Below the pieces are notes generated by a model. The model ran no database searches. It saw only the letters and a list, made by a program, of their open reading frames with translations, and had not been told where the DNA came from. A DNA stretch of 64,000 bases from NCBI GenBank assembly GCA_009192285.1, contig WBVU01000022.1:434001-498000 (forward strand), given 5' to 3'. Numbering within the stretch: the first letter of the stretch is position 1; the number at the start of each line of letters is the position of its first letter. Shown here piece after piece: positions 1-61,505 of the stretch. Origin of the DNA: Morchella semilibera. Its lineage: Eukaryota; Ascomycota; Pezizomycetes; Pezizales; Morchellaceae. Position numbers and translations under genes: made by a program.

Positions 1-1261
1 GGGTTTAGGTGGCTGCCCTGCCTGGCCAATAGGACTCTTACCATGCTTCTAGGGTACAATAATTTTCCCCATCGCTGTAGGCATCTCTGGTGTAAGGGGA
101 GTACAGTTAACATAAGGCGACGCTAATGTACTACCCTTTATCCAAAGATCACTTAGAAAATAACCGTTGAAAGTGCAATGATGTACATGCTTACAGGCAC
201 AGTTCCTAGCGAGTGATATCCCCTGATCAGTGGATCCTGTTGAGATACAATTCAAGTAAGAGGGCATCTAAATATTCGCGACAACATGACCGTGCTTTAC
301 CTAGCTAAACCAACAGTTCTTAATATTGCCGCATTGATATTAAAAGTCAAGATAGTGCCGGTGTCCTGTGCTAGGGAAACATGTCTACCAACATCGTGGC
401 TGAGAGTCATGAGATGCTTCTCTTTACTTCAAATAGGATGGGCCCTCTTTGTCCTTTTGCCCCCAACACCATCATGATACGTGTAAGAATGGATTCATTG
501 CTTTCTTTTTCCCTCCCAACTGAACCCTCTGGTCGGTATTTAGCGAGAAGTGGTCTCAGAACGCGTGGAGATTCTGAATCAAGAACCGCCTCTATGATCT
601 GAGGAGTTAACTAGTCGCCATGGCCCTGTCTTCAGCCACTTTTGTAGTAGTACTCTTGTGCAAACCATAGTTGATCATGGTGATTTACAAAGCAAAAGAT
701 TATGGTCGGAAGTAAGTGAATTGGGAAGCTTTAGAGGCGATACATTTACGGTTAGATTCACGAGGTCCGTGGGTGCTCTTGATTGTGGTATTTTGGGTTG
801 GGTAGATACGTCGACTTATGGGGCTCTTCGATGGTGAACTAGAAGGCTATATTAAAGCTCGTAGAGGATAATTGGTATCTACTCTACTTAATTCTTTGCT
901 GCCCCTCCCTGGATCTGCGTGTTTAAGGTAAGGCCGAGCGCTTGGACTTTGTTTCTAGTGAAAGGGTTTGATATTTATATTTGAATATGTATTCTCCTGC
1001 TACAGCATGTTTTAGTACTCATAACTGTGTATCATGATTATCTCAAGCGATGGTGTATCTGGCTTCATAAGAGTACATAATTACATGTATCCTTTACCCA
1101 AACAATAAAGGCCTAGACACAAAACTAGGCCTATCAGAGCCAAACCATTGAATTCTCTTGTGGCTCATTCACTCTTGACACCGCCATTCTTTTATGATAT
1201 ATTAGACAAGATACGTATGCTCGGCTTATGATAACGACTTGATAGACTCGACCCTCCTTCC
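1..1261. other. Intergenic stretch, no supported gene
   Basis: Only short open frames without family resemblance are present. One copy of the palindrome TACATGTA lies at 1082-1089. I see no RNA gene or intact repeat here. Confidence 0.6.
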
Positions 1262-2957
1262 CTAGTACTTGTACTTGTGCAAAGCCTCCGGCCTTGGGAG
1301 AGAGTTAGGTTTCAGGCCTTTACGCCCCTCGATCTGTTTCTGGTGGTGTTGTGTGATTCTGTCGATATATGCCGAGTGTCGCGCCTTGGGTGGGTTACTG
1401 TCGCCATTAAGTTTGCTGTCGGGAGAGAGATCACGCTTCCATTTTCCATTTGCTGAAGAGTGATCTTCCGGCTTCTTGAGAATCTCGCTGGCACTCGTGG
1501 ATAGCCCCCGCCCTCCATGGAGATTGTCCCACCTATGGATTCCGGTAGAAACAAGCTCCTGTGTTGAATGAAACGAACGAAGGTTCCTATCCCGCTCTGC
1601 GCTGGGAACTCTGTCCAAGAATAACTCATGCCCCCGGCCTTGTCCTTCAAGAACCCCAGGTCGAGGTAGCTTTTTGGGGATCTTGGCTTGGTGTAGTGTT
1701 CTAAAAAGGCCATTTCCCGTGCTTTTGCTACTTTCAATATCTAGGTCTTGCTTTGGATTTGCAAAGCACTTTCTGGCATCTTCGTTTATTCGTAAATGGG
1801 TGATCTCCGGTATATGAGCTGGGGCGGTTTCGGTTTTTTCGGGGGCCGTGGGTATTTGAGGCAGCAAAGCTTGTGTAGAGGAAGGCCGTTTTGGAGAAGG
1901 ATTCCCCCGGAACCTCGGACCGGTTACATTGACCATTTTTTCAGCTTTCCAGGAAACTATCGCGAGGCCGTATGCAAGAGGTTTCCCATTTTTGCTCCGA
2001 GTCGTTGCAACTGCTACCATGCAATCCCCAGGGTTTCCCGTCCTTTGACATGTTTTGCATGCTTTAAAAGTCCCCTTTCCTTCACCGTTTTTTCCTCTCC
2101 CTTGATCCAATCTAATCATCCGTTGCAGGTTGCAGCGATCTCCCTTTTTTCTCCCTTTAGCTAAAAGTATACAACAAATGCATCTAGACCTCGTTTGGTA
2201 AGCCTTCTGGAGGAATTGCTGCTCTGTTGTTGGGTCGCCGTTACCGCAGACGAAGCTGTAAGATTCGGCTAAAGTTTTGAGCTTGAGTCTTACCCTCGCT
2301 CCAGGGAGCCTATGCCAATTATATAGCTTAGTTTCTTGGTTATATTGAGCAATCTGGCACGGGATCCCACGACGTGCAGTGGTGATGCACATCTTGTTGG
2401 AGATTTGTGAGATGCATCCGCCGGAATGATCGGTCACTTGGCAATAAAAGCATTTCCAACTTCTGAAATGCCTTTCGAGATATACTTGCTTTGTTTGATC
2501 GTCTAAGGGTTCCCACTTGAGTTTCCACTCATTTAGGTACCGATTATAATGATCTGCACTGGTATAGCTTGGCTTATTACGGCGTTTGAAAGTCAAGATT
2601 GTGCTACCTAAAGTTGGGATTGTGTCTTCATCGACTTCGTTTGATGGGTGAGCAGACTCCCCGGTTTTTGGCTTTGAATTGAATCTTGGAGAATTTGCAC
2701 CATAACCACGGGGACGTACTTCACGCAAACGTGCTGAATCAGAGATCTCTAAATGTCTTTCATGGTGTAATTCCTTATTTTTACCCAATTTATCGCAAGG
2801 TTGCCCGGATTGACGAGTATTGGCCAGACCACTCTGAGCAGACTTTGGTCTGCTTTCCTCGGGATCACTTGAATCTCCCCAATGTGCAACATCCTGCATG
2901 GGGCTGTCCTCACCAGAGAAGGTTCCAGCGTCTTCATCAGAGCAACTTTCATCATCA

Positions 2958-3000
<43 letters not shown>

Positions 3001-3995: not shown

Positions 3996-5342
3996 GACTT
4001 CAACTAACATCAGAAGAGTTAGGAGGCATGGGCAAGGTAGTGTAGACACATATTCTGTCATTCCGGATGATAATATGTATAAAATTATAAAGGGTATATC
4101 GAGGCTTACCTTCTACGCCTTAGAAGGAGATATCTTGCTACTTTCCCTTTCTTTGTGCCGCCGGGTACTCCGTTCTCTCAAGAGAAGTCTTGGAGTGATA
4201 GTAAAGCCCACCTTGAGGGGCGGGGGCCTGGGCAGACTACTGAGTTAGTTTATGTCTATCATCAAGGTTCAAATGGCACAAACTTTCGGGGAAGCCATGA
4301 ACTTCAAGTTCATGCATCGGGGCGGGGGTTTAAGGATTGGAAGTGGTAGAGAGAAGGGGGTGAGCGGTTGAAAACTATGCAGAACGACAGGATGGAGGGT
4401 AGGGGCAGAGAAAAGTGTTACATACCCCACTGACGATGAAATCAGGTGCTCAAAGTGTTCTGATTCTCTACTAAGGCTGTAAAGGGCTTTTTTTTTAATG
4501 GGACCCGGGATGATAATACAGAGGGTCGATATTTTTAGAGGGTGTTGATAAATGAGATAGATGGTTGATGGGGAAGAGAGGTAGATGGGGAAGAGAGGTA
4601 GATGGTTAATGAATTTATAGGTGCTTTGGCGGGCACTGATAGAGGGGGGCTCTACCTGTCAGAAACTTCTAGTGCAAGTTAAGGGACACGAAACACATGT
4701 TCTCACTACATACATGTATACATATATGTATTATATCACCTCGCGCTACTGCCCCCCGTATGTAAAAAGGACCAACCATACATGTATGTACATTTTATTT
4801 ACTACACGAGTCTAGATAAAGACTACATGTACACACAAGTACATGTACTTACATGTACTGTACTTGGTTAATTCCCGCTAACATACATGTATAATCACAG
4901 TCAGTCACTCGCCAACTTCCCGTATACGCGCGTAGAAACTGCCTACACGCGTAGAAACTGCCTACACCACAACAAAATGGTTCCCCTCGCCTAATCTGCG
5001 GGAAATACTCGCTAGTATGTACATGTACCCACTAGTAGAATTTGAAAGTTAAGATCATGTATACTCGTCCATCTTTAGTCAACCAAATGGTCTCTTGTGC
5101 TCAGCGTTAGGGTGCAGAGTAGCGTAACTGCCCAGGAAGATACGGGCACAGGGTTAATTAAGCTTTCTGGCTCTCGCTTTGGATATTAGAAATTACATAC
5201 CTTACCCCACAAATAAAAGTTTAAAGGTACGGGTTTCATCTTCGACTACCTCAATACACCCCACTAAAAATATTCTCTCGGACATCCGCAATCTTGCCAA
5301 CTTATCAACTACACAACGACAAGACTTTCATCTTTCGAAGTC
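3996..5342. other. Intergenic region with TACATGTA cluster and short tandem repeats
   Basis: Seven TACATGTA palindromes lie within 4711-5027. Two short direct repeats are also present: a GGGAAGAGAGGTAGATG unit repeated near 4570-4605, and a GTAGAAACTGCCTAC unit repeated at about 4930-4965. No gene is supported. Confidence 0.6.
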
Positions 5343-8387: not shown

Positions 8388-9100
8388 CACGTGGGAGGAG
8401 AGATTATAGATATGTTGTGGTGAGTGATGGGGAATATGTAGTTGTAGTAAGTACAGAAGTCGATGTTATGCTAGTAGGCACAGATATAAATGTGGTAATA
8501 TACCCAAACAGACTGCGTTCATCCTGAGGAGGGAGGTGGTGTTTATTTACATAAAGGACTAGGTACATTTTCTGATACGGTACCGACGGAAGATACATCA
8601 TCACTTCGTACGCCATGCCGATGCCAGGGAAAGCTGGGAGATAACATCGTGGAGCCGCTCATCGAGATTCCATGGTGATAATTGGCTCGGTTCACAAGCA
8701 AGCGACGGCTATCTATCAGACATTGTTCTTCCACGAGAATTGTGGGATCGGGATTTCACCGAGCTTGCTTGGGTGGTTGGTACTCGTAGTTTTCTAACGT
8801 TTCCGGACTGGTCTGCATACCACCAAAATACACCTATATGCAGCTGCGTCCAGTCGTTAGAAAACTACATGTACTCATTGCTTCCACAATAATCTTACCC
8901 ATAGCTGTAAGACTGTTTCGTGCGCTACCTAGACGGGATGTATGAGATGAGGAATGGGGGGGATCCGGGATAGAGGGAAGAGGGATTGGAAAAAAAAAAA
9001 AAAAAGGATGTGATGTGACGCGAAGAGTTAAGGATGGGTGGGTTGGGTATGTAGCTGTTTCACAGAGCAGTAGCATTGCTACATGACAGAGGAAAAGCAA

Positions 9101-13627: not shown

Positions 13628-16290
13628 GTGTAGTGGGTGGTGCATGTGATGTAATGTGATGTTTTTTTTCCTATTCATTTTCTATGTTTATCGTTGAGAA
13701 AGGTTAGGATGCGGACTTTCCTTATAGTTTGGGGCATTGTTTTGGACTCATTTTTGGGGCATCATTCCTTTTACATCTCTTTATATATATGGCATGGCAT
13801 CACGTTTTTCTTCTATAGGGGTTTACTTTTTTTTTATGTTGGTTGGGATGAGGGGGTTGGGTTAAATTAAAATCTTTATGAATAAATGTGATAAACGGCA
13901 ATAACGGGCTTCGATTATCTTTTTGTGAGGTCTCAAGCGGGACGAGTGAAAAACCGGAGTGACCAGGACATCTTCATGAGATCTCACCTCATGGTGGCTG
14001 CTTTAACCAATTGCAGCTAGTCATTGCGAGTGATTTCCTATGATTTCGGTTTGCCGTGGTTTTTTTTTTTTTTGTTTAATTGTTAATTGTATGCCTTCTG
14101 GCTATGACAATATCATACTACCCCAGAACTCCCTGCTTCCGCCGCCAGCATCAAGACAAAAGGAAAATGGTAAAGACAAAAGAAAACTAGTATAGTATCA
14201 TGCTCCACTCCACTTCTCCGTCTTACAGTCACTCTTTCTGGTTTGCCGTGATACCGTTGAGGGTGATGCTATCAGTTCTTCCAATATAGTTCCTCCTAAC
14301 CCGAGCAGTACAGTCATGACGGCCGATTTCCGTGCTGGGACTCTAATCGTTTTCTTAAAGTTGGCCACCGACAAGTGGCTACCCCGGCCTTCTAATTATA
14401 AAGGTGTAGGTTTGAGGGTTCCTAAACTACGCCATATATCGCTAAAACACACGGTAGATTGCTCCCCAAAGTATGATACCTTTGGCTCCACAAGGCCGTT
14501 AATCGAACTCTCACTTGTCCCTTTTCTTTCCATAGCTCAAAGCAGCGAGCTCTAAGTTTCAATTAATGGGCTTTGGGAGTGTTTTGATCTCAATCGGGGG
14601 GACTTCTAGCAACTCTGCTCCACCTAGGCCTTCATTCTCTAATCACACCCTATTCCATATTTAATTCAAGGTCTGGTTGAGAAAGCCTCTAGAGGGAGAT
14701 ATGATGTAACCGGTTGTTTGGGTTTTGGCGGTATATGAACTAGACGTTGTGATGACATAAGAGGAGCTATATTTAAAGGGACAGCGCCACCCCTTAGCCG
14801 AGCTTCTCACGCCAAGAACTAGTATAAGGTAAATACATGTAACTTAACCCTAATGTGCGAACCCTATCCCGAAACCGCGGAGTGGCAAACTCCTTGGAGG
14901 TGCTCACCACGGAAAACAAGGAGAGGCCGCAGGTTTATCGACCTGCCTCGACCTGCCTCAGCCCCCACTACCTCCTCTCCCCCTCCAGTGCAACTTCTTC
15001 CTTCCTCATGCTCTTCCAAAGGTCAGGTCACGTAATGTCACTCGGTATTCCCCCCTTCATTGTATGTGGGACTTCATTAATTTGACGTACTACGGGTGTA
15101 GGGGTAAGTCTAGCGACACTAGCCGTGGTTGCACTAGCTTTCACTATCAATAGACTTATCCCTACGCCTGTAGTACTTGAATATAGGAGAGATTTCCTAT
15201 ATATCCATGTGTATACCGGACATATACATGTAATCCCAGGCCATTGATTGCCTGTGCTTGGAAGCAACACACACTACAACATAAGCGAACTTCCCATGTT
15301 TGTTTAACGAGGCCCGTCTTGCAAATCAAGCACCCATATAACGTGTTTCACCGGGGGAGAGGTCGTCACCGGGAAAGCAATCAAGGGTGACAATGGGATG
15401 ACCTAAAGTTGCTGAAGAAAGTCGAGTTTATATACAGTTACAGTAACAAGCAGCCAGAAGTGTTATTTAGATGTCTCCCAACTACTTTTGACATAATTTA
15501 CCTCTATCTAGCAAAGATATGGCTTTAGAGGGGGCTCTGAATTGGTTTGGGAGCGTAAAATTGATCGACTTTACCAAATTTTGGCTTATATTCACTATAT
15601 AACCCCAGGATTCGGGAAGGCGCACTAGGTTCGCTTACTTTCCTAGTGATGATCGCTTTCCCGTTGTAATAGAAGAGTTTGTTGCGGGGTGCGCACTATT
15701 ACCTGTACTCACCAGTAGGTTAGATTGAGTTAGCTTTGTGAGAAAAGAAAGCATAAGTTCAACAAGTGAGGTGTTTCAGTATGGTTTGGGCAGCGAGATA
15801 GTCTAGATTTTACAGCTTATCGTCCGTAGCATAGCACTTCTTAATTTGTACTGTCTATCCACTTTATTCTGGCCCGTTTTTTTAGGAGGGGAATAGGATT
15901 TATGCCTGCTTTAGATCGTTATTGCGGGGATACATAATGCAGACTTCGCAGCAAATTCTTTTATTGGGATGGCGGTTGCCCAAAAAATCTATCAAGCCCA
16001 ATCAAAGACAACATGGCTAGTCTGTTCTACCCGCCACCTTATGGTTTATGATTAAGTCATTAATAGCACTTGCCACTTTTCAACACCGCGGCGACAATAA
16101 CCTTCATATTTCAAACACGTTGAATTCAGGAAACCAAAGCTCAAAGATGACGCTGATTTTATTCTACATGGAGTCTCTTCTCGTTGTTTTGTTTTTTTAC
16201 TTATACATACGCAATCTCCATAAGAACCCACTATTTTCGCTGTGTTGAGAAGACACCTATCTATAGTGCCTGTCCCCTCCTGCCGCCATC
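13628..16290. other. Intergenic region with one foldback element
   Basis: Begins with the T-rich 3' flank of the SDR gene. Two TACATGTA copies (14834, 15225) and a foldback at 15087-15176 are the only structures I can support. Short frames at 14.3, 14.9 and 16.0 kb lack family resemblance. Confidence 0.55.
15087..15176. repeat. Foldback element, 26-bp arms
   Basis: Arms 15087-15112 and 15151-15176 are reverse complements over 26 bp with three mismatches, all transitions (two G/A and one T/C). The 38-bp loop repeats CACTAGC. It resembles a small non-autonomous foldback or MITE remnant. Confidence 0.7.
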
Positions 16291-19207: not shown

Positions 19208-19293
19208 TTCAAGTACTTGGGGTGAGATTAAGTATTGTCCCAACCACGCATGCTATCGCGAGAGACAACACTTAATTCCACCGCAAGTACATG
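19208..19293. repeat. Palindromic dispersed repeat
   Basis: Two inverted arms, about 19209-19240 and 19258-19293, share AGTACTTG.GGTG..ATTAAG and .TTGTC. The right arm in reverse complement is nearly identical to 6900-6942. A GCATGC centre separates the arms. Confidence 0.65.
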
Positions 19294-22200
19294 TATATAA
19301 GTATTTTCCGCACTTTTCACCTCCCGGACTACCATAACAGGTCGGGCCGAAAAGTCCGGCCCGCCGCGCCCCCCCCCCCCCCCAGGAAATCGGCAAACAT
19401 ATTTCCAGGGTAAGGCACGTGTGGCTGACGTGACGTCGTCCGTCCCACGTTTGGCGCTCGGCACTTCCGGATAAACGCCAGATCTACAGGACCGAAATTA
19501 AAAACCTGGTATCAATCCTTGAACGAAACTTATAAAACGCCAGATTTCTGATTGATTGCTGTTGAATATTCCAGAAAGGGGTAAGTAGCTGGCTGGCTGG
19601 CTTGCACGATTCACGGCTTGTCACTCGGTTATCTTTTCCGATACTTGTCTCGGCGACCGGCTGCACAAGCAGCCGAAGTTGCCTTTTGATTTTTATGGGA
19701 AGAGTGACAATGACCAAATAAGGAAATTTCAACGTCTTGTGTGACGAACCACTTGGGCTTATGAAGTATCGATCAATCAATCAACCACTTGGACTTTTGA
19801 GTCGTCCTAGATATCGATAACGAAATACAGAACGTTTCAGCTCTGGGGGTAACCATGTGCATAGAGTCATAACTCCAGAGAATTGTTTTCAAATGTGCTA
19901 TTTGCTAGTCCAAGATACAAGTGGCTGTCCATGTTCGTTTTGGAGGTCTATCTCCAGCCTCACTTATGGCTGGCAGGTCATCTGCGTAAACTCCCCAATG
20001 TCATGATGACCGAGGTACTAAGTTGATATTAATTAGCATTTGCATTATCGCTAGTTGAACAATCCTAACAGACCGCTGCCCATGGTCTTCCCTTTTCTCT
20101 AAAAGAATTACCTCGACCGAAAGCACTGCTCTCCGAAAACTCTATATCGACTGTGGATGTTAATGGAACGGGTTTCTTCCCTATAGTACCGGACTCCCCG
20201 GGAAATCTAGGGAAATAAAGAATTTACTATGTCACTCAGTATATCGTCCAGAAATTCCAATCCCAGCCCTTTCCACCACCATGTTAACTTACGCCCTTTC
20301 CCCCAATGAATAGTGGTACCCCATAGAACTGCCTTATTTTCTCTAGTACAATGTATATCAAGCATCTGTCCTATCAACCAGAGCAAACAAGTTATTGATA
20401 CCCGCCCCGCGAACGCGGGCACGACAGCATAAATGGCCCGAGCATCACCCCAAACTGACTGGCTGGATCCGGAAAATAGGGCCGGTTCTCTCTCCTCGAT
20501 CATGTTTATCCTCAACCCCACAGGGTGCTCAATCTTGGGCTGGCTGGCCACTACATGTACATATACGCGGTAAGCCGCATGAATCTCCGGCTGTGATACC
20601 ACTTGATACAAGATGTGTACCACCTAGTACAAAGATCTGCCCTGAAGGAATCAATTTGCTAAGAAACATACCTACCCTTCCGTCCCCAAGATCTGTCCGT
20701 AACCGGATACCGGATGGGTGATCGGTGCAAAGCTGGTACTACGTATATGATGACTGTGTTCTAGAATTTCAACCCCTCAAGTCCCCCACCTTTTCCCCAG
20801 AGTGACTACCATGATGGTCATGTGTTTGTCTAGAATACCACTCGCTGTAAAATTGCATTCTCGATTCATATACAAGATTTTTCGCAGGGCGAACTCGCAT
20901 TGACCAGCCACACACCCCACTTCTTGCTTGCCGTGGAGTACCTGCTTATTTTACCTTATGAATTCGTAAAAAATTATTCCCGCGGTAATAACCTGATGAT
21001 CATGTCTAGCTTCTACGATCTAAATACTCGCCCTCTCCGCCTGGTCCGGGCCGTACTCTTACTAGATGCTGTACCAAGGCACCTCTAATAGAAACAAGGT
21101 GTGTCTGATGTCCCTTCCAAAAAACACTTTGCAGGAGAGATGGTATAGTTTAAAAAACGATAGTCTAGAAGTCTTCCTCTTCCGACCTTGAGAAGTGTGC
21201 TGGACGGTCCGTCTGGCCCTCTAGTATACTGATCTACCATGTAAGGCCCTGTCTAAGAAAGAAAACTACAGCCTGTACTCCCAAACTGGGCTAATCCGAT
21301 GGTAGGCACACCACTGCAGCATATGTGGTTAATAGCAGGGGTAAATAATCTTCCGAGACGGCATGTATGTAGGTAAGGATATGGAAGAGAGGGTACTTAC
21401 GTATGCTCATGTAATGTAGGGTATAGCTAGTCACCCCTGCAGCTGTAGAAACAGGTACTTGGCAATTAGCTCTTTCAACCGTGCTTTATACAACCACATA
21501 TCTCAACAGCACTATTCCCCTATTTTTCTTTTTCTTTTCGGTATTGGCCCTGCCGACTGAGCTGGGGAGTAAGGGTATCCGGCGCGTGATTCCCCTATGA
21601 TCGGCAAGGTCCAGTACTTTCGGGGACCCTATGTTGCCTGATTCTGAGGATGCGGTCCGAGACCTGGCCTGAGGCTCGGGCTGGGTTTTACTTTACTTGC
21701 TTATGGCCCTTGAACCTCACAGGAGTGGACACATCGAGGCTACGCTTTCTCTTTGAGTACTAGGAATATACCAGCCAGGGCCTCGTAGAACCTTTCTGGT
21801 ATCTGGGTTAGCTGTCGGCTTTCGCAAAGCACATCCACGTCTACACGCTGGTAGCGTATATATTAAACAGTGCTGGTAAACAAACTGGGGAGACCAAGAA
21901 TTGAAACAGCTAGATATTAGGGCAGTAACCCGGAGGCAGCACCGTAGCGTTGGCCATGAGCTCTTATTTGAGACGTAAGCCTGCTTAGTTGGGCACCATA
22001 TATATGTGGGTATGGAATAAAGACTTTAAACCAGCTCATCCCTGCTCTGCCTCTTCCATTTTCGGTAGAAAAAAATGAAACTCATGTCGATCAAAGGGCC
22101 CAGTTTCAGACACACGGTCTTCCCTGTAAATTGGGATCGGCAGGCCAGAGGTCAACGTGACTTGCTCGAAGCCTAGCTACGAAAAGCCCCTGGTTTGTGG

Positions 22201-22947: not shown

Positions 22948-23918
22948 TACATGTACGTACGGTACTCTCTACCAGGTTATGCAGCCGTCTTGGCTTACCG
23001 GGCTTCAAGCTACCAAGGTATGGTGAACAGTACTCTTTGAGTTCGATTTAAAGTATCAACGGTTTCAAAATCAAGTGACTGGCGTGGTAAATAAAAAATG
23101 TCATTCCCTAGTATGCCGAAATGTATCCGAGAAATCTTACGTTGTTGAATTCTTAGCAACGCAGTATATTGTTGAAAAACATATGTATTCTTTTACGATA
23201 TAGTCACTCACGTGCACATGGTGATGGAGAGAGGTAAGGAACTTTCATTGTATACATGTAGTGACAGTTGGTTTTCTGTAAGATATCCAATATGTACATG
23301 TAGTCAGGTGAGAGCCGCCGTTTCCTCAAGGCGTGGGTGCCTGGGTGATATGTAGAGTACATGTACATGTAGGTACATGTAGTTTAGAGTATATCATGGG
23401 TGCATGTAGATTAGACTCCTTGAATGTTCTTAAGCCGACCTGACCAAGATTCGTTCGCCTGTTCTTGCAACAGAGTTTAATCTACATGTACACAATTAAC
23501 TGCAAATACTTGCCGGAATACATGTACGTGTACACATATTCGTTCCTTTTTCTCAATCATTTTCTGATATCCAAAGGGGCGGGGAACAATGGGGTCAAGT
23601 ATTCGTGAGGACATTTCTATGTTTTTTATCGATATGCTTGTATCAAGAACGTTGTTGATATTTGGTGGTAAGAACTAGAATGCAGTCTTAGTGATGGAAG
23701 GCATGCCCTTGGCATAATTGGACCCTGGGGGTAGATTAAAAGTCGGCTCGGACAAACTTGATCATGGCAGCAGGGTTTCTCATTATATGTATTGCCGTTC
23801 TTCAATGTATTCACGGCTCCGTCGGCCGTCTATCCCGCTGGATCTGACCAGAGCTCTCAGTAAAAATGCTTTTCTTTTTTGCTTGGGTGCATGCATGTGG
23901 CTACTATCAGTACATGTA
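22948..23918. repeat. Cluster of nine TACATGTA palindromes
   Basis: Exact copies start at 22948, 23253, 23295, 23358, 23364 (overlapping the previous one), 23374, 23483, 23519 and 23911. The cluster ends about 370 bp upstream of the cellobiohydrolase ATG. Confidence 0.75.
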
Positions 23919-27772: not shown

Positions 27773-27775
27773 CCT

Positions 27776-33129: not shown

Positions 33130-36100
33130 TTAAGGAAGAACGTTCCACTCCCCGTTCCAGTCCAACTCTGGCATTCCGTGATAATCTGCTTCACCACCCA
33201 CAATCTCCAGTGTCCTCTCCTCGTCAATGTATCTGAACACTTCCTCCTCTGTGATGATCCCAGACCTCTGTGTTCCTGCTGGAGTTTGGAGACTAAACAC
33301 TTCCCTTGCGACACCCTTGACTTGCATGAGCACACAGTCTGCCACGCTCCACACCTCACCCAGAGTTTTCAGCGCCCCGACGCCAAGTCTGATGCGTTCC
33401 TTTGCGAGGAAACCCTCATCACCCGTCAAGAGCCATGAACATGCAGAGAGATGAACAATCGCAGCAAGTGTGATGACGCATGTAAAAAAAGGCGTATGCT
33501 TTATCAACGGAGCAGGGAGAGTAACAAGTTTTGCAATTGTATTTGCAGCGGTTATTGCTTTTGCGGTGTGCATTGCAATTGGTTTATTAGACGTTGACCA
33601 TGACTGCGCTGGTGTACACGACGTATCATCAGGCACCAGTGAGATAGCAAGGTGTGACTTTGGGCGGTGAAGATAGATGGTGGCCGCGTAGACAACCATA
33701 TGAGCCTGGAAAAGCATCTCGTCTACTCTTCGATCGTTTCCAACCAACTCTTTCTTGCAATCTGGTAGATGAAGACCCCAGTTAACAAGACTAGCATCGG
33801 CAGCATCAGCCCTGGGGTCATCCTGATCACTTGTTTGGCCAACAGCCAATACCTGACCAAGAATGCGGACGGCATCAACACGGTAGGCAAAAGAACTGAA
33901 GACCACAGTCTCGTGAGCAAAGTAACGTTCATCAAACTCTTGTAATGACCTTGGCTCCGGGATGCGCTGTCAAAATCGTTAGCACAAAAGTTGAAGAATA
34001 AAAGGGACGGTATAAAGCGTACTCCCGTAACATAATCTTTCTCCTCACAAGGTAGTGGAACGGTGCATGGTAGGCTCCAAAGCTTGAACGAGTCCTTTTG
34101 ATGAAACCCAGCCAGGAGACCATCAAGAAAGTAAAGCTCCCACCAGGTCCGTCTCCAGCTTTCAGCTAAGACCTTTCCCGCCGCTGTTCCGTTATATGAA
34201 CTCTCCGAGAAATCGCTCATGTTCATTCCTAGATCCAATGCCAATTCAATGGCTTTATCCTTAACTTCGGCAGACCTTTCTTGGTCGTTATCACTGTGCA
34301 GGGCAACGGCGAACAACAGAAGCGCTTGAACTGTGAATGCATTGCGTGGAGGATTGTTGAAGAGGGCGGCCTCGGCATCCTGTCTGAATGTATCTGTAGG
34401 TGCGTTTTGGGCAAAGAACGAAGCAACAAAACGAATCACTGGAAGCAAAACCATAAGTTGAGAAGCCGGTGTTGTGATGAGATGGCTTGGTGGCAGAATA
34501 AACGGATGTGCGGAATGGAAATAGGCATAGTAAATTTGCAATAGATTGGCAGTTGCTGGAGCAGGTGCGGGGAGCTCCTGTTGGGAGGGGAAGATGGTAC
34601 TATTCTTGTGATAGGCTCGGAGGGTATCAAGAGGACTTCTTGTAGCTGCTGGGGCGGCTGAGCTAGGCGTAGCATCGTTTGAAGGTGTGTTCGCCAGGGG
34701 AAGCGGATTTTTGCTGAATGTAGTGCACTTTCCATTGCTCTGCGGCGGTGTTGCCCGAGTTGGTGGAGATGCTAATGGTTTTGACCAGGTGTTAGAATTA
34801 TGTAGTGACCAACCCATCATTGTTTTTGCCATTTGTGAAAGCTTGTGGGAGAATGCTATAAGAAATAAAAGTGATCTTGAACTAGTATAAAAGGAAGGTG
34901 GATATATAATGAGCCTTTAGTGATAAGCAAGGGAAGGCTAACATGAAGGGGGAAGTACTATGTAATTATAGGAAAAGGGAAATATGGGGGGAGTGAGAAG
35001 ATGAAAAATAAAAATAGCGTTTCGCCCGTAGGGTCGAAACAAGTGACCGGGGCCCTTTTCTTCGGCGACGACACCGGCGGGCCGTATACAAGCAAGTGGC
35101 GATCTTCCCCGTAACTTTGCAGGATATATTTGAGACAAAAATTCCAGTGCAGGAGGGGAGGGAGCGTGTAGATCCCGAGAGTGAGATCTTAGCACGGCCA
35201 AGTGTCACCAGCCTCAAAGATTACCGAAGTTTGGCAACTGGAGGCAGGTAAGGTATCGAAGAGGAAAAAAGTAAACCAAAAAGGGCTCCCCCCCAACCAG
35301 TCTCAGTTTTGGCTCGTATCACCAAAATAAAAAAAATCCAGATGATGATGACCGCAGGAGAAAGACTGTGGCGATCGTGCAGACGGGGAGGTACATGTAC
35401 ACATATACCTGGAAATCGCCGTGGTAGAAGGGTGTATGTACCTACATATCTACTCGTAGCATACATATACCCGACGATAGTGGGTGGTGTAGGTAGTTGG
35501 TAATGTGGTTGTGACCAACGGTAAATGGCAGGGACGAGGACAAGCGGTGTCCCAGACATGGACGGTCTCGGTTTGTGTAGGAAGCTTGGACCGTCTTGAG
35601 GTCGCCGAAGCATCCCCAGGCGTCAGGGAAGAAGAATGGCGACCAGCCACATTCGTCGCTGTGCCAAGTCCCCACTCGCACACCACATCAAGATCCCCGC
35701 AGTCCCCGAGTCAAGTCCCCGAAGCCCCGGTTCTGATCGCCTAACCGAATAAAGCACCCGACGAAACGCCACGAAAACGTGCGCCCCAGCGCCTCGGTAC
35801 TTCCGGGGGAGAATCAAAATGCGAGGGGAAAAAAAAAAGAAAACACACAAACTGCAACCACAACCGTAAAAAAAAAAACGGCTTTAAAATTAAAGGAATT
35901 TTTCAAAATAATAAAATAAAATAAAATAAAACATGCCCACGCGTGTACACCCCAAAACAAAGAGATTTGAAACCATTGAAAATAAGACATCGTAAAAGTG
36001 GAACAAAGGCTCGCCGACGTATGGAAATGAATAAATACTGAAAATGGGGGCCTTACCTTCGTTATTTCCATTCCCCTGTTTCTCCTCGGCCTTCTTTACT

Positions 36101-42785: not shown

Positions 42786-43428
42786 TACATGTACTTGATG
42801 AGCTGTTCATATATGACGACTTCTGGACAAAAATGAATTCAGAGGGTGTTGTTGCAGATCAAGGCTGTTGATATTTGAGGCGGGTAGCCCAACGGCACCT
42901 TAGTCAGAGCTGTCTCCTTTCACTCCCCTCTCTCCGTGGTTTCTGTCTGCACAAGTCATCAATCACTTCCCGTACCATTTCATCAACATTGAAGTCCATT
43001 TTCAAAGTCGGTGCTGCTCCAGACGAACGACGAACGACATTGCCCGGGAACGCCTTCCCCGCAGACGCTTTTGACAGAAACGCTCTTGGGCACACTGAAG
43101 TGGCTATGGCTAATACCCACTCCCACAAATAACCAGACAGGATCTAGGAGCACAGGACCGACATAAGCAGTTTTCAACGGGAGCTATCAACAGCATCACC
43201 AACCCGAAACCGTCGTTAGGCCTTGGAAGACTTTTATTCTGCCCCCGGTCGCATACATGGACGTGTGCTCAACAGCAAGAGTTAGTGTGCCAAAGGAAAC
43301 ATACCAATCACTCCCCCTATTGGATGAATTAAACTACATTCTTCACGTATTCTCTTGTTAATGCTATACACTACTAAGCGTTCTCGTTCTAGTGATCGTT
43401 GGTTATAGGCAAATGTGACTAGGCTATT

Positions 43429-46621: not shown

Positions 46622-48997
46622 ATTGAATGTATATGGTGATGCTTGGACTAGGTATCAATGATGGGATGGTGTGTGTGTGATGGAGAAGGTTGAGGATGGA
46701 GGGAAGAGATGACGGTTAGATGTAGGTAGTTGGCGATGCTGAGAAAAGGACACGAAGACGTGCGACCAATGCGTGGCGTAGCGCGGATCCCCGTAGTACT
46801 AGTACATGCACTGGTAGTAAGGGATGTGGCGCAGGGGAATCCTTTGGGGGAGGGTTTGCGGCAAAAACTCAACAAAAAGACAAAGGTGGCGTTGAGCAGA
46901 GATTTCTGACGCACATTAGTCGGCTCGGATAAAAATGCTTCCCAGTACTTCGAAGGAGTAGAACCTTCCATCGGTGTGGCTGATAAGGGGCAATTTTCCC
47001 TAGTAGTATTCAAAACTTACTACCTGGTATTCTATTCTCCGTAGAAAGCTGTAGACAATTAGAGTGCCCGTCTCTAGCACGTGATCCGGGAATTTTCTAC
47101 AGCCGGCATACACCAACTATCTCCGGTCCGATGCTCAAGTCCGGCTTGGCATACGTATACCTTCGGCTTATAATGTATCTAGGGTCCCTAAAAGTGATGC
47201 AACGGCTTGGGATTACACTAAGTGAGGCCTATGATTGATACACTGTTTACCATACATGTATATTGTTGCTTCATTAGGGTTACGGTTGGGTCGCATGTGG
47301 TTGAAATCGTGAGTGGTAAATCGAGTCCTTTCCGGTACTCCTGGGTACAAGATGTATTTTTCAGGTCTCTGCATAATTTGGATTTTGTATGCATATCCGA
47401 TGAGTTGGTGAGTACATGTATATACCTTTCTAAATGATGGAAACTAAGGAGCTCAAGAAAACAAAATTAAGAAAAAAACTTATTGTATCAGCCGACTGAG
47501 ACTCCTAACTACATGTACATAACCGTGAAGTCTGTTCGACATATTTGAACGTGATAGGTACTAGTACTTACATCAGGTACATGTATCTGCGTAAGTACAT
47601 TTTGTTTTACCATGATGGATGATCGGCTGCGAGCTTGGCGTGTTCGTATAAATACAAGATTGATCTAAACCCCTGTAAAGGTCAAGGTGTCCCTTTTCTT
47701 GGTCTTGGGAAATCTAGCTATCCCTTAATGCCTGTCAACAAAATTCTGCCCCTTCAAGAAAACGGATCTAGTGCGGCTTTACAGGTCCCGTCTTCACCCA
47801 ATGGAAGTTTGGTTCCTCTATTTAGTAATCGATAGATGAAGGGATAGGGTGAGATAGATAGTTGTTCGAAAGTGGCTTGCTCCTAAGCTTATAATGTAAG
47901 TTATTTTACTTGATGAGGGAAGGACCGACTTCGATAGGGAGAGGGATATCCCACTGTGGATTTTATTGTCCGCTAATACAGAGTGGACATGCCAATCCGT
48001 CGTCTATGTAATACCGTGGGGTGCATATATGAGTATGTCGGTTTGGGTTCCTAAGCGAAGAGCCACTCAAAACACATGTCGGTGTTATTTCCGGCGACTG
48101 TTTCAGGGCAACTTGCAAAGCAGGAATGTTGGTAAGCTCGAGAAGCTATGGGGACGTAACTAAAATCGGCGTTTCCACAGAAACCGGGGGATCTGCCCCC
48201 CCCCATAATAGTACTAGTGTCTAGATTAGCTGTGACACACTCGCTTCTTGCGCCAGATGCCGAGCCATGCTTTGACATTGAGACATGCCTAACCTCCCAC
48301 GTTCCCCAATGACAAGCAGAGTACATACCTACATGTAACCTTTACCCTCTTTAGTCGATAGGCCTTGCGCTCAGTACAGACCACCGCACACGTTCCCGGG
48401 AGGTTCTAGGTACCAGTAGAGAATGGATGTCGATCAGCTCAGCCCTATGTGTCTTGGAAGCTGACTCTTGGCGGTTTGATCCAGGATATTGGGTATTGAA
48501 CCCGCGCTATCTTGCCCACATTCAGGAACCGTTAGATTTCATTCCGCTCAAAACAACACATACTTGCATTCACATGTTATGACTTGCAAAGAAATTTTGG
48601 ATTAAAACGGAGTATATTGGGTTCGTGTGACTAATCAGGGGTACCGCCTTAAAGCAAGGTGGAAGAATGCAAGGACTCTCCAAATGGGGTAGGAATGTTC
48701 TTCACGAAAAGTAGAATGAAGAGGACGTTGGATGCCCTTAGTAAGAACACTACGCTTTTAGATCTTCCCCAAGAGTACAACTCGCAACCACTCCTCCCGA
48801 CCTTTACCCTACTCCTAACTTGTGCTCATTATTATTGCTAGCTCTTTCGGTCCCCCGAAGAAATATAACCCTAGGTATACATCAATCGTTCTAATATCTC
48901 AAAACTGTTACCCAATTTTAGAGCTATTTTTGTTGCAAACGCATTGCATATGCAGACAATGCGTACTCTATTTTGACATGTGCACAGGGCGGGAATA

Positions 48998-49141
48998 GAT
49001 ACCGTATTATCTGAATAAATTCGTTGCGAGACAGCAGGGTTATAGGCCAACCAGAGCCCACCTTTAGGCGTCGATCTGCAAGTTTTGGTGTAAATAATCC
49101 TTGCTGCAGCGCAACGAATTTATTCAGATTTTGCGGTACTT
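48998..49141. repeat. Foldback/MITE-like element with perfect 20-bp arms
   Basis: ATCTGAATAAATTCGTTGCG (49009-49028) and its exact reverse complement (49110-49129) are the core of longer imperfect arms: TACCG outside, CAGCA.GG.TTAT inside. No coding capacity. Confidence 0.75.
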
Positions 49142-50542: not shown

Positions 50543-50615
50543 ATCACTCGATCATGCTGGATCACTCGGTTCATGAGTCATCACTCGGTTTTCCTTTTTC
50601 TTGTATCACTCGGTT
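50543..50615 (+). repeat. Irregular ATCACTCGG array
   Basis: ATCACTCG starts at 50543, 50561, 50580 and 50605; the last three continue GGTT. Spacing is 18-25 bp and the sequence between copies is not repeated. A fifth TCACTCGGTT lies at 19621. Confidence 0.6.
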
Positions 50616-50803
50616 ACAGTGTATCCTTTGATTTAAACTGAGTTTCCCCGGACTTATTTATAAATGAAATTGCCTGTAGGAGTCCCGCGATGAGGAGATT
50701 ACGCTAGCATCCGCTTCCGTGCTTATTATTTGTAGTTTCCATTTGTTGTTATTAAATCTATTTCACGGTATTTGTTTAGATCCCTTTATTTAGTAGCGTA
50801 GCT

Positions 50804-50831
50804 AAAAAAAAAAAAAAAAAGAAAAAAAAAA
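50804..50831. repeat. A-rich run
   Basis: About 28 bases, almost all A with a single G. It could be a retroposon tail, but no retroposon body is recognised upstream. Confidence 0.4.
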
Positions 50832-53948: not shown

Positions 53949-54708
53949 CCAGTTGGGCGTTAATTGGTATATCCATACACTGCTGAATCCTTCATACTCT
54001 TTGGTTGGTTTATCCGTTTGAAAAATAAAGACGGAGATGGTATGCATATATGTTTTGGAACCGTCCGAAGTTCGGTGGTATGCTTTCCTGACCAAAGGTG
54101 AGTACTAGCGAATATAACTCTGGTTGATTATTTTTTTCTGTGGCTAAACCTGGCCGTCACTCATCCCCGAAGTGCTACCGAGATGAAGAGGGTGTGATAC
54201 ATATCGAAGCTAAATAAAAAAGGGGAGGAATTTGCAGCTCAATTGTACGCATGAGAGAGGAGAAATGCCAGTCGTTATATACGAGTTTTGAAAGTCCTAG
54301 GTTAAACATTTCATGAAATATTTCTGGACAAGCTACCTGTAAATATAACAGCTTAAATTGCTCGCTGAAATTATATTTATATCGGGCTCATGTAGAATTA
54401 GCGCATACAGAAGACCAACTCAGAGCATAGCACATGTCTTAATATAAGAGAAGATCAAACTCTTCACCAATGTAATTCGAGAAATAGCTTCGAAGTCAGG
54501 AGCATTAGGGCAGGCCTGCCACACCTGCCTTATCTACAAGAAGAGTATTCGGATGCCTTTGCCATAGGAGAAATGATCTAGCCGTGATCAGGAAATGTAT
54601 ATGAGAACGTCAACGATGATCATGAAGCGGGACGGAGGGGTCTAGAAAAATGAAATTACTTCCCAAAGTTACATGTTATTTTTTTGACTAGTCACTACAT
54701 GTACTTGG

Positions 54709-54783
54709 GCGTTTAGTAAAAGGTCGTGAAAACTGGTGTTGCAACGGGGCAATTTTTCACGACCTTTTACTGAATTAACGCCT
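54709..54783. repeat. Perfect 18-bp stem hairpin
   Basis: AGTAAAAGGTCGTGAAAA (54715-54732) pairs exactly with 54754-54771 around a 21-base loop. GCGTT / AACGC outside extends the pairing with a bulge. Confidence 0.75.
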
Positions 54784-56658
54784 AAGTAAATTACTCTAAT
54801 TATTTGAATGTCTTCTCGAGCCCATGATTCTTGTCTAGCATGACTATAGGACTTGAAGTATCGGGCAAAAGATATCGTGGTTAGTTATAAAGGAAGGTGC
54901 ATACATGTAGTATATAGGAAGAAAGATGATAGCGAGAACATTCCCGTTATTCACACGTGCACTGCAGACAAACAACTGCTTAATGAAATAATCTATCGGT
55001 CGATCAACGGGCAATAAATAATCTAGAATTGATTTCATGGCCATACCTCCACTCGATCACTCAACAACTTGCTCGAAAAACTTGTGGAAACACAGATTAT
55101 AGTACTCGGAATATTAATGGTATCCTGAGATTCAGCTAATCTAATCAGATCATGTTTCGAAATGACTAATCCCAATCCAAACCCAAACTAAAGACGGACA
55201 CTACATGTAGTAGCCGCACTCCCGCTGCAGGTGAATCTTAAAAACTGCACTTTGCTGATTGTTTCTCAAAAAGGTGCAGGAACAGCGTGATAGGACCGTG
55301 ACCGTGACCCTAGGTCATAGAGTCTGTATGTATGTATGAAGTAAGTGTACCAACAATGTACATCTTTGTGAGTTGTTCAAATATTTACATTTACGTACAC
55401 AGACAGGCCAAAGATCCGAGCCGTGTAAAGAAATATCTCCGAGCCGTACACATGTAACGCAGGGTACATCTAGACAAGTGGTTGCAACTTGCCATCACCT
55501 CGCCTCTTCCACCACTGGCCAGCGTGCATCGAAGCGAGGCCAAATGCGAAGATCGAAAACACATAATATCGCAGTATGGGAATTGGGAGTTTATATTATA
55601 CATCCAGGTGTTCTTTCTATTAATACTAGCTATAGTAGCTGAGTTGTTGTGGCTGCCTATCATTGGTAATGAGTAACATGTAGAAGAAAATAGATTTATT
55701 GCACTTCCTTCTGATCCTGGTGATGATCCACATAAATGAATGAATGTGAGAACAGGTAACGCATCTCGGGAGAGGGCCAGTGATTGTCGTCAATGTTGTC
55801 GAAATAAGCTTTTTCTAGCCAATATCCCGTTCAACTTTGTCGCATGTAGGCACACTAGAGGCCATGATTTGTGAATATGTATTTGGTGTAGAACACAATC
55901 GCTTAGAAATTGGGATATATTGAATTGATTGATACCTAAGGAAGTATGTATATAGCAGACCATTAGCAAGTTAGATCCATGATCGATATTGTCCGGGGAA
56001 ATTAACGTGGTCGTATATTTCATCCTGAGGTTAAGCGGGGTTCTTTCTCTAGCTCTCTTATCAATGTCCAACAAGCTGACCGTCCTCATATCTGACACCA
56101 GTCCGGGTACTGATACTGGGTTAGGGTTTTTTCAATAATGGTCTCTACATGTACTTACATACATGTAGTGTCGCACAGCTAGGGTATGATGTATGATATA
56201 CATGTATATGTGGACTAAGGCTTAAAGCTTGTTTCGACACCTACACTTATGTAGGGTACACAACCGTATGAGGCACTAAGATTATGAATGAAACGGTCTA
56301 CCCCGCCTCAACTCCATCCAACTCCTGAGGGTTTTGTTCTGACTACATATATCCATCAGAACTAACATCAACTTCACACCGCCCAACCATGATCTAAATC
56401 ACAAGAAGAGATTCCGCCTGAAATACATGTACAGTCCCGGGCTTGTACATCGGTGATAACGGGGTCTCCACTCATTATCGCACCAATTGCAACCCATTTT
56501 TAAGGAATTCCGCCTGGCTTGATGTAACGAGGAATCAAATATTCAACTGAGCTACATGCAGCGTACTGCTAACTATGTAGTAGTGAGTGACTTCTTTTCA
56601 ATACTCACCCATCATAATGATCAGCCGGGCCCCGGAGCTAAGCTTTTCTCCGTATTAT

Positions 56659-58354: not shown

Positions 58355-60028
58355 ATGCGCTCTTCTACTATGAGATCCAGCACCCTCCTTGCCCTCACGG
58401 CGCATGTCCTCACTGCTGCAGCTCTTGTAAACAAGGATGGAAAGACTGGGAAGCTTCCAGCATTGGGATTCAACTCATGGAACGCCTTCCGCTGCGATAT
58501 CCATGAAGACAAGTTCCTTGTATGTTGTTTCCCACCCACCACATCTCCCTCCCTTCAACAGCTAATCCCATGTATACAGGTCGCAGCACAGGAGATCATA
58601 GATTTGGGTCTCAAAGAGGCCGGCTATGAGTACATCAACATCGACGATTGTTGGTCGCTCCTTTCCCGCGATAACGTCACAAAGCGCATCCAACCCGATC
58701 TCTCAAAGTTCCCCGATGGCATTAGCGGGACCGCCGATAAAGTCCACGCGCTCGGCCTCAAGTTCGGTATCTACTCTGATGCCGGAGATCTCACCTGTGC
58801 TGGGTACCCCGGGTCCCTTGGCTATGAGGAGATTGACGCCGAGACATGGGATGAATGGGGCATTGACTGTAAGTTGATTGTCTAGCTGATTGGTGTGCGT
58901 GCGCGAGTAAGCGCTAATGGTTATGGGCGGGAACAGATCTGAAATACGATAACTGTAACGTCCCTAAAAACTGGACAGATGAGTACCAGTACTGGCCCGA
59001 GTACTGGTACGGCGACCATGAGGACCAGGTCGGCGGCATTCCCGCCCCGGATGGTTACGACTGGTCGACTTCCAAGACGGCGGAGCGCTACAACCGCATG
59101 CGCGATGCATTGCTAGACCAATCGCGCACGTTTCTGTATTCACTGTGCAACTGGGGACACTCGCACGTTGAGCAATGGGGTAACCAGACGGGGCAGAGTT
59201 GGCGTATGTGGGGAGACATTATCCCTGTTTGGCAAGGAAGAGTTGATTATTCCTGGGGTTTTAGTAGGTTTCTCTTCTTGCCATGCAACTTGGAGCACAT
59301 AGAGGGTTTGGGTGGTCTTAAAACTAACTATCGAGGATAGTGCCCATTATTAACCATGGCATCTTCTTTTTGGAGTGGAGCGACTTTTGGGGTCATAATG
59401 ACCTTGACATGCTGGAAGTTGGGAACGGAAACCTGACGGCCGAGGAGACACGAAGCCACTTCGGTATCTGGGCAGCCCTCAAATCGCCGCTCCTCATCGG
59501 CACCCCAGTAAGCGTTCCTCCTCTACCAAGTCTACCACGAATACTAACCACCTACAGCTTGACGTTATCTCAGAAGAAGATCTCACTGTCCTGAAGAACT
59601 GGGAGATCCTCGCCTTCAACCAAGACGAGACCTGGGGAGCCCCCGCCCTCCCCTACAAGTGGGGAATCAATCCTGCATGGACATGGAACCAGACACACCC
59701 CGCTGAGTACTACAGCGGTGGCTCTGAGCGCGGTATCCATGTCTTTATGATGAACACTCTCAACCAGACCGTGACCAAGAGCGCCATCTGGGGCGAGATT
59801 CCCGGTCTCAAGGCAGGAAAGAAGTATGATGTGAGAGATATGTGGACACATAAGAAGCTCGGTAGCTTCCAGAAAAAGATTGACGTGAAGCTCGCCGCTC
59901 ATGATACGGCTGCATTGTTGATTACTGAGGTTGGCGGTAAGCACCCGCTCCCCAACCCGGCGGCGTTGCCAAAGCCGAAGATCTATGAGACGAAGCCGAA
60001 GAGGTGGTTGTCACCCGAGCTGCTTTAG
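58355..60028 (+). CDS. GH27 alpha-galactosidase, secreted
   Basis: GH27 alpha-galactosidases remove terminal alpha-galactose from galactomannan and raffinose-family sugars. Exons 58355-58519, 58580-58868, 58937-59263, 59341-59507 and 59558-60028 (introns 60, 68, 77 and 50 bp) join in phase to 472 residues. The first intron is a multiple of three and has no stop, so a naive frame reads through it. The signal peptide covers about residues 1-24. Family blocks are [56 protein letters not shown] (nucleophile Asp near residue 156), [43 protein letters not shown] and [15 protein letters not shown] (acid/base Asp near 283), then [10 protein letters not shown]. The C-terminal beta domain is complete. 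A second in-frame ATG at 58370 is an alternative start. Confidence 0.93.
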
Positions 60029-61505
60029 AGCCGTGAATCATGATCTGCTGGGGGGGGGGGGGGGTGTGACGCGGGCGAATGAGCAGTGATGGGAGAAATG
60101 ATAGGCATGTCTGTAATTAAGTATGTGCTATTGTGAAAAGTCCGAAATACTACAATATGATTGGGTTCGTTAGACCGTCTCTGGTCGATAGTCCGTTTTT
60201 TGTGTGCCGAGATGTCGCTACTCTCAGACCGGGTTTCTACTATTTTCCAGGTACTCTAGCGGCGGATTGAACGGTCCAGAGTTAGAGACTGACAGCGAAA
60301 ATATGAACTGTGAATCTGTAGGCCGCCCCTGATCCGCTCGATGTTCACTGGCGGAGGGGAGGGGGAAAACACTCATATGTAATACATCATAGGCCCCGGA
60401 ACCACTTGGGTCGTTCGTTGGGTGTTCCTGAGAGCACCAGGACTCGGAAGTGCATGTCTCGCCCGGGTCACGTCACGAATCAGCACTAGAGAGTATCACC
60501 ATTCACGGTGCCAGCCAACCATGTGGAGATATTTCCATCCATCCAATTGATGGACAGCTTCCCCCCTAGTGGTATGTATGGCCCATGGAGATGTAGAGTA
60601 GGAGCGGGAGTCAAGCACGCACTGAGTACGGTATGTAGGTACATACATTGATGTTATGCCATGTATCATCATCATCAGGGTTATCGAATACGGACTTGGC
60701 CCCGAGGGGGGGGGGGGGAGAGCTGAAATTTCGAATGTTGTTTCTGGGCATTTTATGTGCTTTATCCCAAACATACTGTATATAAGTATGTGTGTATATA
60801 GCCTACTCTACTTATCTTCATACATCTACATGTAGATACTCCAAGGAAGTATAGGCAGCTGGCGTTGTTAATAATACTCCAGACGAAAAGAAAACAGGGG
60901 AAATGTTTATCTCCCGCGCCATCATGCAGCGAATCGGATCGGCAACTTGTAATTTTAGGTCTGCATAAGAAAATAGGTTAAAAAATTAAAAAACAAAAGT
61001 GCATTTCCGGCTCCCACGCCAGCATTTCGAGAAAAAGGGAAAGAGTCCGCGAGCTCGGGCCCACACTTCATGATATGTGCACTTTGCGCGACACTGTTGC
61101 GTGTTATAGGGGAAATCGCTGTTTATTGGCTCCGGTTGCAGTTGGGGCTCTCGTGGATGTCATAGACGAGCCAATCGTGATTCAAGAGATCGTGATATTC
61201 ATTATTTTCGCTTTCATTGAAATCTAACGATTCGTACCTACATAGAGGATGTGTTTTTCTTCTTTTCCCTTTTTTTTTTCCTTCGTAACACACTATTACA
61301 ATTAAACAGACGCAATATTTGCTTTCCCTTTTTTTATTTCCTTTCTCCCCCCCTGCCAATATCATTTGTGGAGATATCCGCCCGACCCCACCACCACCAC
61401 TTCCGAAATTCGAGCCAGCCCAGCCAATTAACCAATAGCAAATAAAAGAAAATAAAAAAAGAGACAAGGAGGAATAAACGCCGTAGTACCCAGGGTTGGA
61501 ATCGT
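60029..61505. other. Convergent gap between GH27 and chitin deacetylase genes
   Basis: 3' flanks of both genes. G runs at 60050-60063 and 60707-60718, and one TACATGTA at 60827. No supported gene. Confidence 0.55.

Follow-up and report, generated by a model that had tools for sequence, protein, structure and literature searches.

A palindrome in large excess upstream of genes in the ascomycete Morchella semilibera may be the core of a dimeric promoter-regulator binding site

The palindrome TACATGTA occurs 37 times in a 64,000-nucleotide stretch of the Morchella semilibera genome (GenBank assembly GCA_009192285.1, contig WBVU01000022.1, positions 434,001 to 498,000 of the forward strand; hereafter the window), and it is found in large excess throughout the assembly. 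We propose, with a probability of roughly 0.6, that TACATGTA is the core of a putative binding site of a dimeric promoter regulator. This reading is preferred because the palindrome has a strict symmetric core and a softer symmetric context, forms pairs one helical turn apart, gathers in homotypic clusters and is biased toward the upstream side of genes. From these features we infer protein binding, a dimeric state of the protein and regulation of transcription.

Abundance of the palindrome

An earlier note, made from the letters of the window, had counted 37 copies where one or two would be expected by chance. The count is exact, and 100 dinucleotide shuffles of the window gave a mean of 1.01 copies and a maximum of 4. 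The bases that it recorded immediately before the palindrome (A 12, C 12, G 11, T 2) and its four clusters of 7, 9, 5 and 7 copies were likewise reproduced. Genome-wide (56.76 Mb, 23 contigs) there are 22,206 copies, or about 1 site per 2.6 kb on average, which is an excess of about 25-fold over the approximately 900 copies expected from the scaled shuffle mean. The letter-reversed palindrome ATGTACAT, the sole matched palindrome counted across the genome, occurs 3,723 times. The genome count of TACATGTA is inflated by some share because some contigs look duplicated: contigs C9 and C10 are identical across both stretches compared (1,502 bases in total), near-equal-coordinate matches are found in the contig pairs C9/C10, C12/C13, and C21/C22, and from these matches the assembly looks to contain duplicated or haplotype contigs.

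Further counts were made in a 304-kb sample composed of the window and 24 stretches of 10 kb, on 12 contigs. The apparent duplicates C9 and C10 were both sampled, at different places, and the density counts exclude loci L001-L008 and L027, which were picked via the motif or a gene. The sample contains 155 copies of TACATGTA, compared with Markov expectations of 6.3 (order 2) and 9.2 (order 3), and its z-score tops those of all 8-mers listed, even the homopolymers. Among the 64 palindromes with two G/C the median count is 6, and the two that follow TACATGTA reach 22 each. The excess over AT-matched palindromes, on which the earlier note had made its proposal depend, therefore holds against all 63 others in the sample and against ATGTACAT in the genome.

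Strictness of the core, flanking context and spacing

Most one-base relatives of TACATGTA in the 304 kb are near background. The raised ones are three of the four transition pairs, where the C-to-T change or its mirror gives 49 against 17, and one transversion pair, TACCTGTA/TACAGGTA (21 against 11); the remaining transversion relatives are near or under background. The one-mismatch relatives do not share the upstream bias that is described below for the exact palindrome (transitions 47 upstream and 51 downstream, transversions 41 and 43).

Immediately outside the core, a T before or an A after it, which are strand-equivalent, occupies only 27 of 310 flanks, and the corresponding TTACATGTAA context is rare genome-wide (387 of 22,206 copies). 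Two bases outside the core a TA step is favored: among the 117 isolated copies it is present on the left in 47, on the right in 35, and on both sides in 15, against a background of 0.064, and 3,317 of the 22,206 genomic copies read TANNTACATGTANNTA. The preferred wider site is symmetric and approximates TA-N-V-TACATGTA-B-N-TA. The logo is flat past about 5 bp from the core, so that most copies are not ends of a single larger repeat. When flanks were compared between copies, the 20 of 65 non-overlapping pair matches listed were mostly 20-36 bp long, and the longest, of 75-92 bp, come from one small element.

Neighboring copies show a strong preference for a single distance. Of the 2,666 pairs in the genome that are separated by 0-30 bp, 606 have a gap of exactly 2 bp, which puts their starts 10 bp apart; this spacing recurs in 19 of the 100 pairs listed, in which every other spacing occurs at most 7 times. 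The dinucleotide inside the 10-bp pairs is varied, and the pairs are therefore not one decamer repeat. Tandem duplication was rejected as the source of the spacing, since in nine sampled pairs the dinucleotide is repeated after the second copy in two and before the first copy in none. Triples at 10 bp number 13, compared with 16.5 under independent pairing (606 x 606 / 22,206), and longer arrays are thus not favored.

Position relative to genes

Gene models were produced by a self-training ab initio finder (a codon-context model with short introns) run on sequence in which the palindrome had been masked, to keep it from influencing the predictions. They comprise 74 genes in the 304 kb, with 108 kb coding. 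A gene start is the nearest gene boundary for 107 copies (1.20 per kb) and a gene end for 45 (0.48 per kb). The ratio of upstream to downstream density is 2.5 (1.7-3.7 by bootstrap over 13 blocks), with the same direction in 11 of the 13 blocks. The 63 other palindromes of equal composition, taken as controls, are distributed as 153 upstream and 189 downstream (Fisher p 1e-7, a value that ignores clustering). Introns hold one copy in 12.5 kb (0.08 per kb), where the downstream density would predict about 6 (Poisson p 0.017).

The earlier note had stated that the palindrome never falls in a predicted coding exon. This is true of all 37 window copies; elsewhere in the sample, a predicted exon contains one copy and a predicted start codon is overlapped by another, so that 2 of 155 touch coding sequence. 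Synonymous codon shuffling predicts 0.58 copies in coding sequence where one is seen; coding DNA has therefore not been purged of TACATGTA and is merely unenriched.

Density is 0.51 per kb within 200 bp of the start codon and 1.73 per kb at 200-500 bp, and in the 304 kb the copies keep no sharply fixed distance from it. Divergent gaps between genes carry 1.35 copies per kb, tandem gaps 0.91, and convergent gaps 0.35 (permutation p 0.01 for divergent minus convergent density). Single gaps hold from 0 to 11 copies, with a dispersion index of 3.6. At least one copy is present within 2 kb upstream of 38 of the 74 genes. Only 1 of the 18 genes with less than 900 bp upstream carries a copy (a block edge truncates two of the 18), compared with 37 of the 56 with longer upstream regions; gaps shorter than 500 bp are not poorer per kb, with 3 copies in 3.2 kb, all within one gap.

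The highest upstream counts belong to an ankyrin-repeat gene (9), the GH7 gene of the window (9), and a gene without a Pfam match (8). Seven copies lie in the gap common to an isopropylmalate-synthase-like gene and an S-adenosylmethionine-synthetase gene, seven in the window gap at 4711-5027, six before another gene without a Pfam match, and five each upstream of a Sec7 gene and an Exo_endo_phos2 gene. Copy-free genes with at most 741 bp upstream (10 were domain-scanned) include those for an eIF3 subunit, an RNase PH-type subunit, Sec1, and ATP_bind_1. The link of copies to particular genes is no more than a tendency among 74 genes.

A putative site for a dimeric promoter regulator

Under the preferred reading, an abundant sequence-specific dimeric protein would act at promoters of this ascomycete via TACATGTA, with one subunit per half-site reading TACA inward. 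The TA step that lies 2 bp from the core would be sensed by this protein or by a second subunit at its side. Dimers would often stand in twos, one helical turn (10 bp) apart, as expected when they bind cooperatively to the same helix face, and clusters of 5-9 sites are present at some promoters. The earlier note had offered several roles for the palindrome, and its dimeric DNA-binding protein is the one favored by the promoter bias, the wider symmetric site, the 10-bp pairing and the scarcity of copies in introns. Its debris of a spreading micro-repeat remains the main rival, since the sole readable copy history is a 10-bp insertion. Such frequency implies either a regulator of a large share of the transcriptome or an insertion process marking thousands of promoters. 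TACATGTA itself could serve as bait for a DNA pull-down or for DNA affinity purification sequencing in the fungus.

Several observations weigh against a dimeric regulator. In tandem gaps the promoter half is only weakly favored (40 copies versus 25, p 0.08), and when counted per gap the promoter half leads in 10, the other half in 9, and 2 are tied. Any copy at all is found in 9 of 16 divergent and 7 of 13 convergent gaps, and because these fractions are similar, the divergent/convergent difference is driven by cluster size. Dispersed non-genic repeats (3.9 kb) hold 2 copies where about 3 are expected and therefore show no depletion. The letter-reversed control palindrome has 37 of its 129 close pairs likewise at 10 bp, and it may be nested in the same 10-bp lattice. 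Copies overlapping at 6-bp spacing, of which there are 501 genome-wide, are beyond a simple two-dimer model, as they could not be bound simultaneously, and they fit slippage or reuse of the TA. One copy in a dispersed element was born by a 10-bp insertion and not by point mutation, a single case that is described in the next section. Finally, no reader was recognized among the homeodomain matches as far as they were read: the one Homeobox_KN (TALE) match has Ile at position 50 (SNWFINARRRRLP), and of the five PF00046 matches, which probably count one locus twice (C9 and C10), WFQNR is present at two loci, whereas at two others the reading ends before helix 3 is complete. TALE proteins with Ile50 bind TGACA, whereas Irx has Ala at position 50, and the Ile50 TALE and WFQNR homeodomain classes bind cores other than TACATGTA.

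Insertions and transposon footprints

The strongest alternative, which we consider rather unlikely, is that short TA-directed insertions or transposon footprints make the TACATGTA copies, with no binding protein required. In the footprint version, a Tc1/mariner-type element with 5'-CA...TG-3' ends leaves TA-CA-TG-TA at excision; in the unit version, TA is the target of a 10-bp insert, NNTACATGTA. Repeated thousands of times where promoter DNA is accessible, either process would account for the copies as well as for their outer TA, their 10-bp pairs and the overlaps at 6 bp.

Two families of small elements bear on this explanation:
Approximately 109-bp TA-flanked element: L023 at about 2885-2991, and L034-L050; on many contigs, with CAGCG...CGCTG ends in most copies
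Second inverted-repeat element, approximately 100 bp: block L013L014 at 10450-10561, block L023L024 at 3587-3686, L057, and L058

The history of one copy can be read in the second family, of which four copies were compared, two in the sample and two fetched. The copy at L013 has an interior TACATGTA, away from the edge of the element, that belongs to a 10-bp insert CCTACATGTA after a TA; the copies at L023 and L057 are without it, and the fourth, at L058, has lost the insert region and is too changed to call. At least one TACATGTA is, judging by these element sequences, the product of a short insertion. The insert makes TA-CC-TACATGTA, which is the common outer-TA context (TA-NN-TACATGTA) of the logo. 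The case raised the probability that we give to the insertion explanation and lowered that of the regulator reading. It is 10 bp long, whereas a Tc1 footprint has 6 bp, and because it is a single case of that kind, we give the insertion explanation no higher a probability than stated above. Insertion as the origin of sites is compatible with their later use by a binding protein. The edge of the second element reads TACATG|TA in three of four copies and CACATG|TA in the fourth, and these edges suggest that the element may favor TACATGTA as a landing site. A comparison of haplotypes for the birth of copies was uninformative on 6-bp indels, C9 and C10 being identical where compared.

Potential parents of footprints are present. 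The sequence taCATGta is given as a rare Tc1 footprint in Caenorhabditis elegans in the matched text of PMC3520976, the genome has 69 DDE_3 matches, and the ~109-bp element, with its CAGCG...CGCTG ends and TA duplications, shows that elements with CA...TG ends exist here; the 501 overlaps at 6 bp also suit this origin. The flanks do not. All 18 copies of the ~109-bp element examined (17 from the genome list and 1 from the sample) lie in a G-TA...TA-C (GTAC) context, and its footprints would therefore read GTACATGTAC, which is found in 8 of 155 copies, below the approximately 12 expected from single-flank frequencies. Footprints of this resident element were accordingly rejected as the source of TACATGTA (G...C flanks in 18 of 18 versus 8 of 155), a result for the one family tested. 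The element adjoins TACATGTA in 5 of its 18 copies, where the palindrome was probably there first: 83 of 799 intergenic GTACs adjoin TACATGTA, and the comparison indicates that the element sometimes lands on an existing palindrome.

Other properties also speak against footprints. Introns, as neutral sites, should have collected them and are poor in copies. The 2.5-fold higher density upstream counts against them too, although a preference for open promoters could account for part of it. The words TACAGTA (26 in 304 kb) and TACTGTA (23) are not outstanding, and TACATA and TATGTA are 1.8-fold over the order-2 expectation, but TACCTA is likewise and TATATA is 1.7-fold over it. Relative to the Tc1 excision footprint, then, TACATGTA has the same eight letters and differs in its flanks, in its few intron copies and in the 10-bp insert.

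A combination of both ideas, in which TA-directed NNTACATGTA inserts enter open promoter DNA and the well-placed ones are kept as sites of a dimeric regulator, would, if true, account in a single process for the pairs at 10 bp and the overlaps as well as for the outer TA and the upstream bias; we regard it as doubtful.

Other explanations

It is improbable that TACATGTA is a general chromatin-organizer site, for a Reb1/Abf1-like nucleosome-excluding factor, an insulator or a replication-origin factor, with no regulon of its own. The very high copy number, about 1 site per 2.6 kb, and the TA, CA, and TG steps in a 10-bp lattice would suit such a role, whereas the uneven distribution among gaps (dispersion index 3.6), the presence of copies within 2 kb of only about half of the genes, with their scarcity where upstream regions are short, and the lack of a sharp fixed distance to the start codon would not.

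A mutational or slippage artifact, such as a (TACATG)n or (TACATGTANN)n microsatellite or a mutation hot spot, was already disfavored and is hardly credible: TACATACA- and ACATACAT-like words are raised too and overlapping TACATGTACATGTA is common, but 117 of the 155 copies are isolated, with no other within 26 bp, logo conservation stops about 5 bp outside the core, the bases within 10-bp pairs are diverse (dinucleotide repeated in 2 of 9 sampled), and there is no excess in introns or coding DNA.

Copies in the window and their surroundings

In the window, 26 of the 37 copies are on the upstream side of the ab initio gene models and 11 on the downstream side. No strand is assigned to the copies, which are as follows:
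1082..1089, no strand: single TACATGTA
4711..5027, no strand: cluster of 7, starting at 4711, 4779, 4824, 4840, 4850, 4884, and 5020
8866..8873, no strand: single, upstream of a predicted DHO_dh-domain gene at 7494-8387 (-)
14834..14841, no strand: single
15225..15232, no strand: single, about 50-75 bp from a terminal-repeat-like stretch (small TA-flanked element)
19288..19295, no strand: single
20552..20559, no strand: single
22948..23918, no strand: cluster of 9, starting at 22948, 23253, 23295, 23358, 23364, 23374, 23483, 23519, and 23911
35392..35399, no strand: single, between a Zn2Cys6 open reading frame at 35890-37050 (-) and a Fungal_trans open reading frame at 33750-34817 (-)
42786..42793, no strand: single
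47253..48337, no strand: cluster of 5, starting at 47253, 47413, 47510, 47578, and 48330, in the divergent gap 46146-52312
54696..56431, no strand: cluster of 7, starting at 54696, 54902, 55202, 56146, 56160, 56199, and 56424
60827..60834, no strand: single

The first cluster, which includes a 10-bp spaced pair (4840/4850), sits in the divergent gap between predicted genes at 1262-4061 (-) and 5343-6170 (+). The cluster of nine precedes the GH7 gene (24287-25704, +) by 0.4-1.3 kb and contains an overlap (23358/23364) and a 10-bp spaced pair (23364/23374). The last cluster is between a tyrosinase-domain gene that ends at 53948 and a predicted gene at 58370-60028 (+).

The copy at 35392 had been assigned to an intron of a putative transcription factor gene. 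The gene models keep the two open reading frames apart and place the copy in the gap between them. In this part of the window (33130-37050), the Zn2Cys6 and Fungal_trans domains are encoded by separate minus-strand open reading frames 1.07 kb apart. These may be two genes, or a single transcription factor gene whose intron is unusually long. The Zn2Cys6 and Fungal_trans domains, the GH7 gene and the short introns point in themselves to an ascomycete. Neither Rfam nor tRNA scanning gave a match in the window (ARAGORN was run with the bacterial code).

A second motif and G/C runs

A second, bipartite motif, TCAYNNNNNATCACTCG, has 6,041 sites in the genome (3,044 + 2,997), compared with 7 for its backwards control, and 36 sites in the 304 kb. 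Those in the window are at 7292, 14027, 25946, 26659, 29612, 40261, 45170, 50534, 50552, and 50571. A half-unit like ATCAY recurs at 10 bp, and the ATCACTCG half of the motif is without upstream bias (24 upstream, 25 downstream, 2 in introns, 1 coding). The motif looks like the site of a general DNA-binding protein, and nothing relevant to it was found among the literature matches listed. Runs of at least eight G or C are also in excess, with 217 start positions of CCCCCCCC on both strands of the 304 kb where 26.5 are expected, 20 of them within predicted introns.

Comparison with known systems

HIP1-type highly iterated palindromes of cyanobacteria are 8-bp palindromes in huge genome-wide excess that are frequent within genes. 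TACATGTA resembles them in length and excess and differs in being concentrated upstream of genes.

Two kinds of protein are reported to read the same or a related core. Irx homeodomains are said to prefer TACATGTA in the matched text of PMC3520976, which cites its reference 70; the site is the same, whereas the only Homeobox_KN match of the M. semilibera genome has Ile50, and an Iroquois-type homeodomain was not adopted as the reader, none being present among the homeodomain matches read. The BEN domain of human NACC1, according to the matched text of PMC11472053, prefers CATG-containing DNA and was crystallized on a palindrome containing TTACATGTAA; it differs in being a human protein and in that the TTACATGTAA context of the crystal is disfavored in this genome. 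From Irx and the NACC1 BEN domain it is known that proteins can read TACATGTA.

The earlier note knew of no described role for the palindrome in fungi, and the open-license full-text literature agrees: among the matches listed, in the passages they returned, TACATGTA appears as a promoter motif for Phytophthora only, with no fungal report of the site or of a protein that reads it. In PMC3445587 (yeast) and PMC7793764 (powdery mildew) the matched letters occur in polymerase chain reaction primers, the matched text of PMC551538 gives only AACATGTG, and CATG is absent from the matched text on the Magnaporthe oryzae Isw2 palindromes (PMC11481914). The same palindrome has been published for Phytophthora, as the matched passages of three papers describe: motif-1, an inverted repeat with the consensus TACATGTA at 12,070 Phytophthora genes (PMC3520976); M93, in which TACATGTA is counted 4,150 times in P. 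infestans promoters (PMC3597505); and a Phytophthora promoter motif in PMC6165875. The Phytophthora motif lies upstream of genes including glycosyl hydrolases, and the homodimeric factor proposed for it is merely suggested in the matched text (PMC3520976). Motif-1/M93 and the palindrome described here are alike in being a strict TACATGTA inverted repeat that is abundant upstream of genes (here 107 copies upstream and 45 downstream). They are unlike in that Phytophthora is an oomycete and in that the 10-bp pairing and the outer TA are not found in the matched passages on its motif. What is new here is an abundant promoter palindrome, known from oomycetes, in an ascomycete, with a wider symmetric site and 10-bp pairing, and it lets one ask whether fungi and oomycetes reached one promoter code independently.

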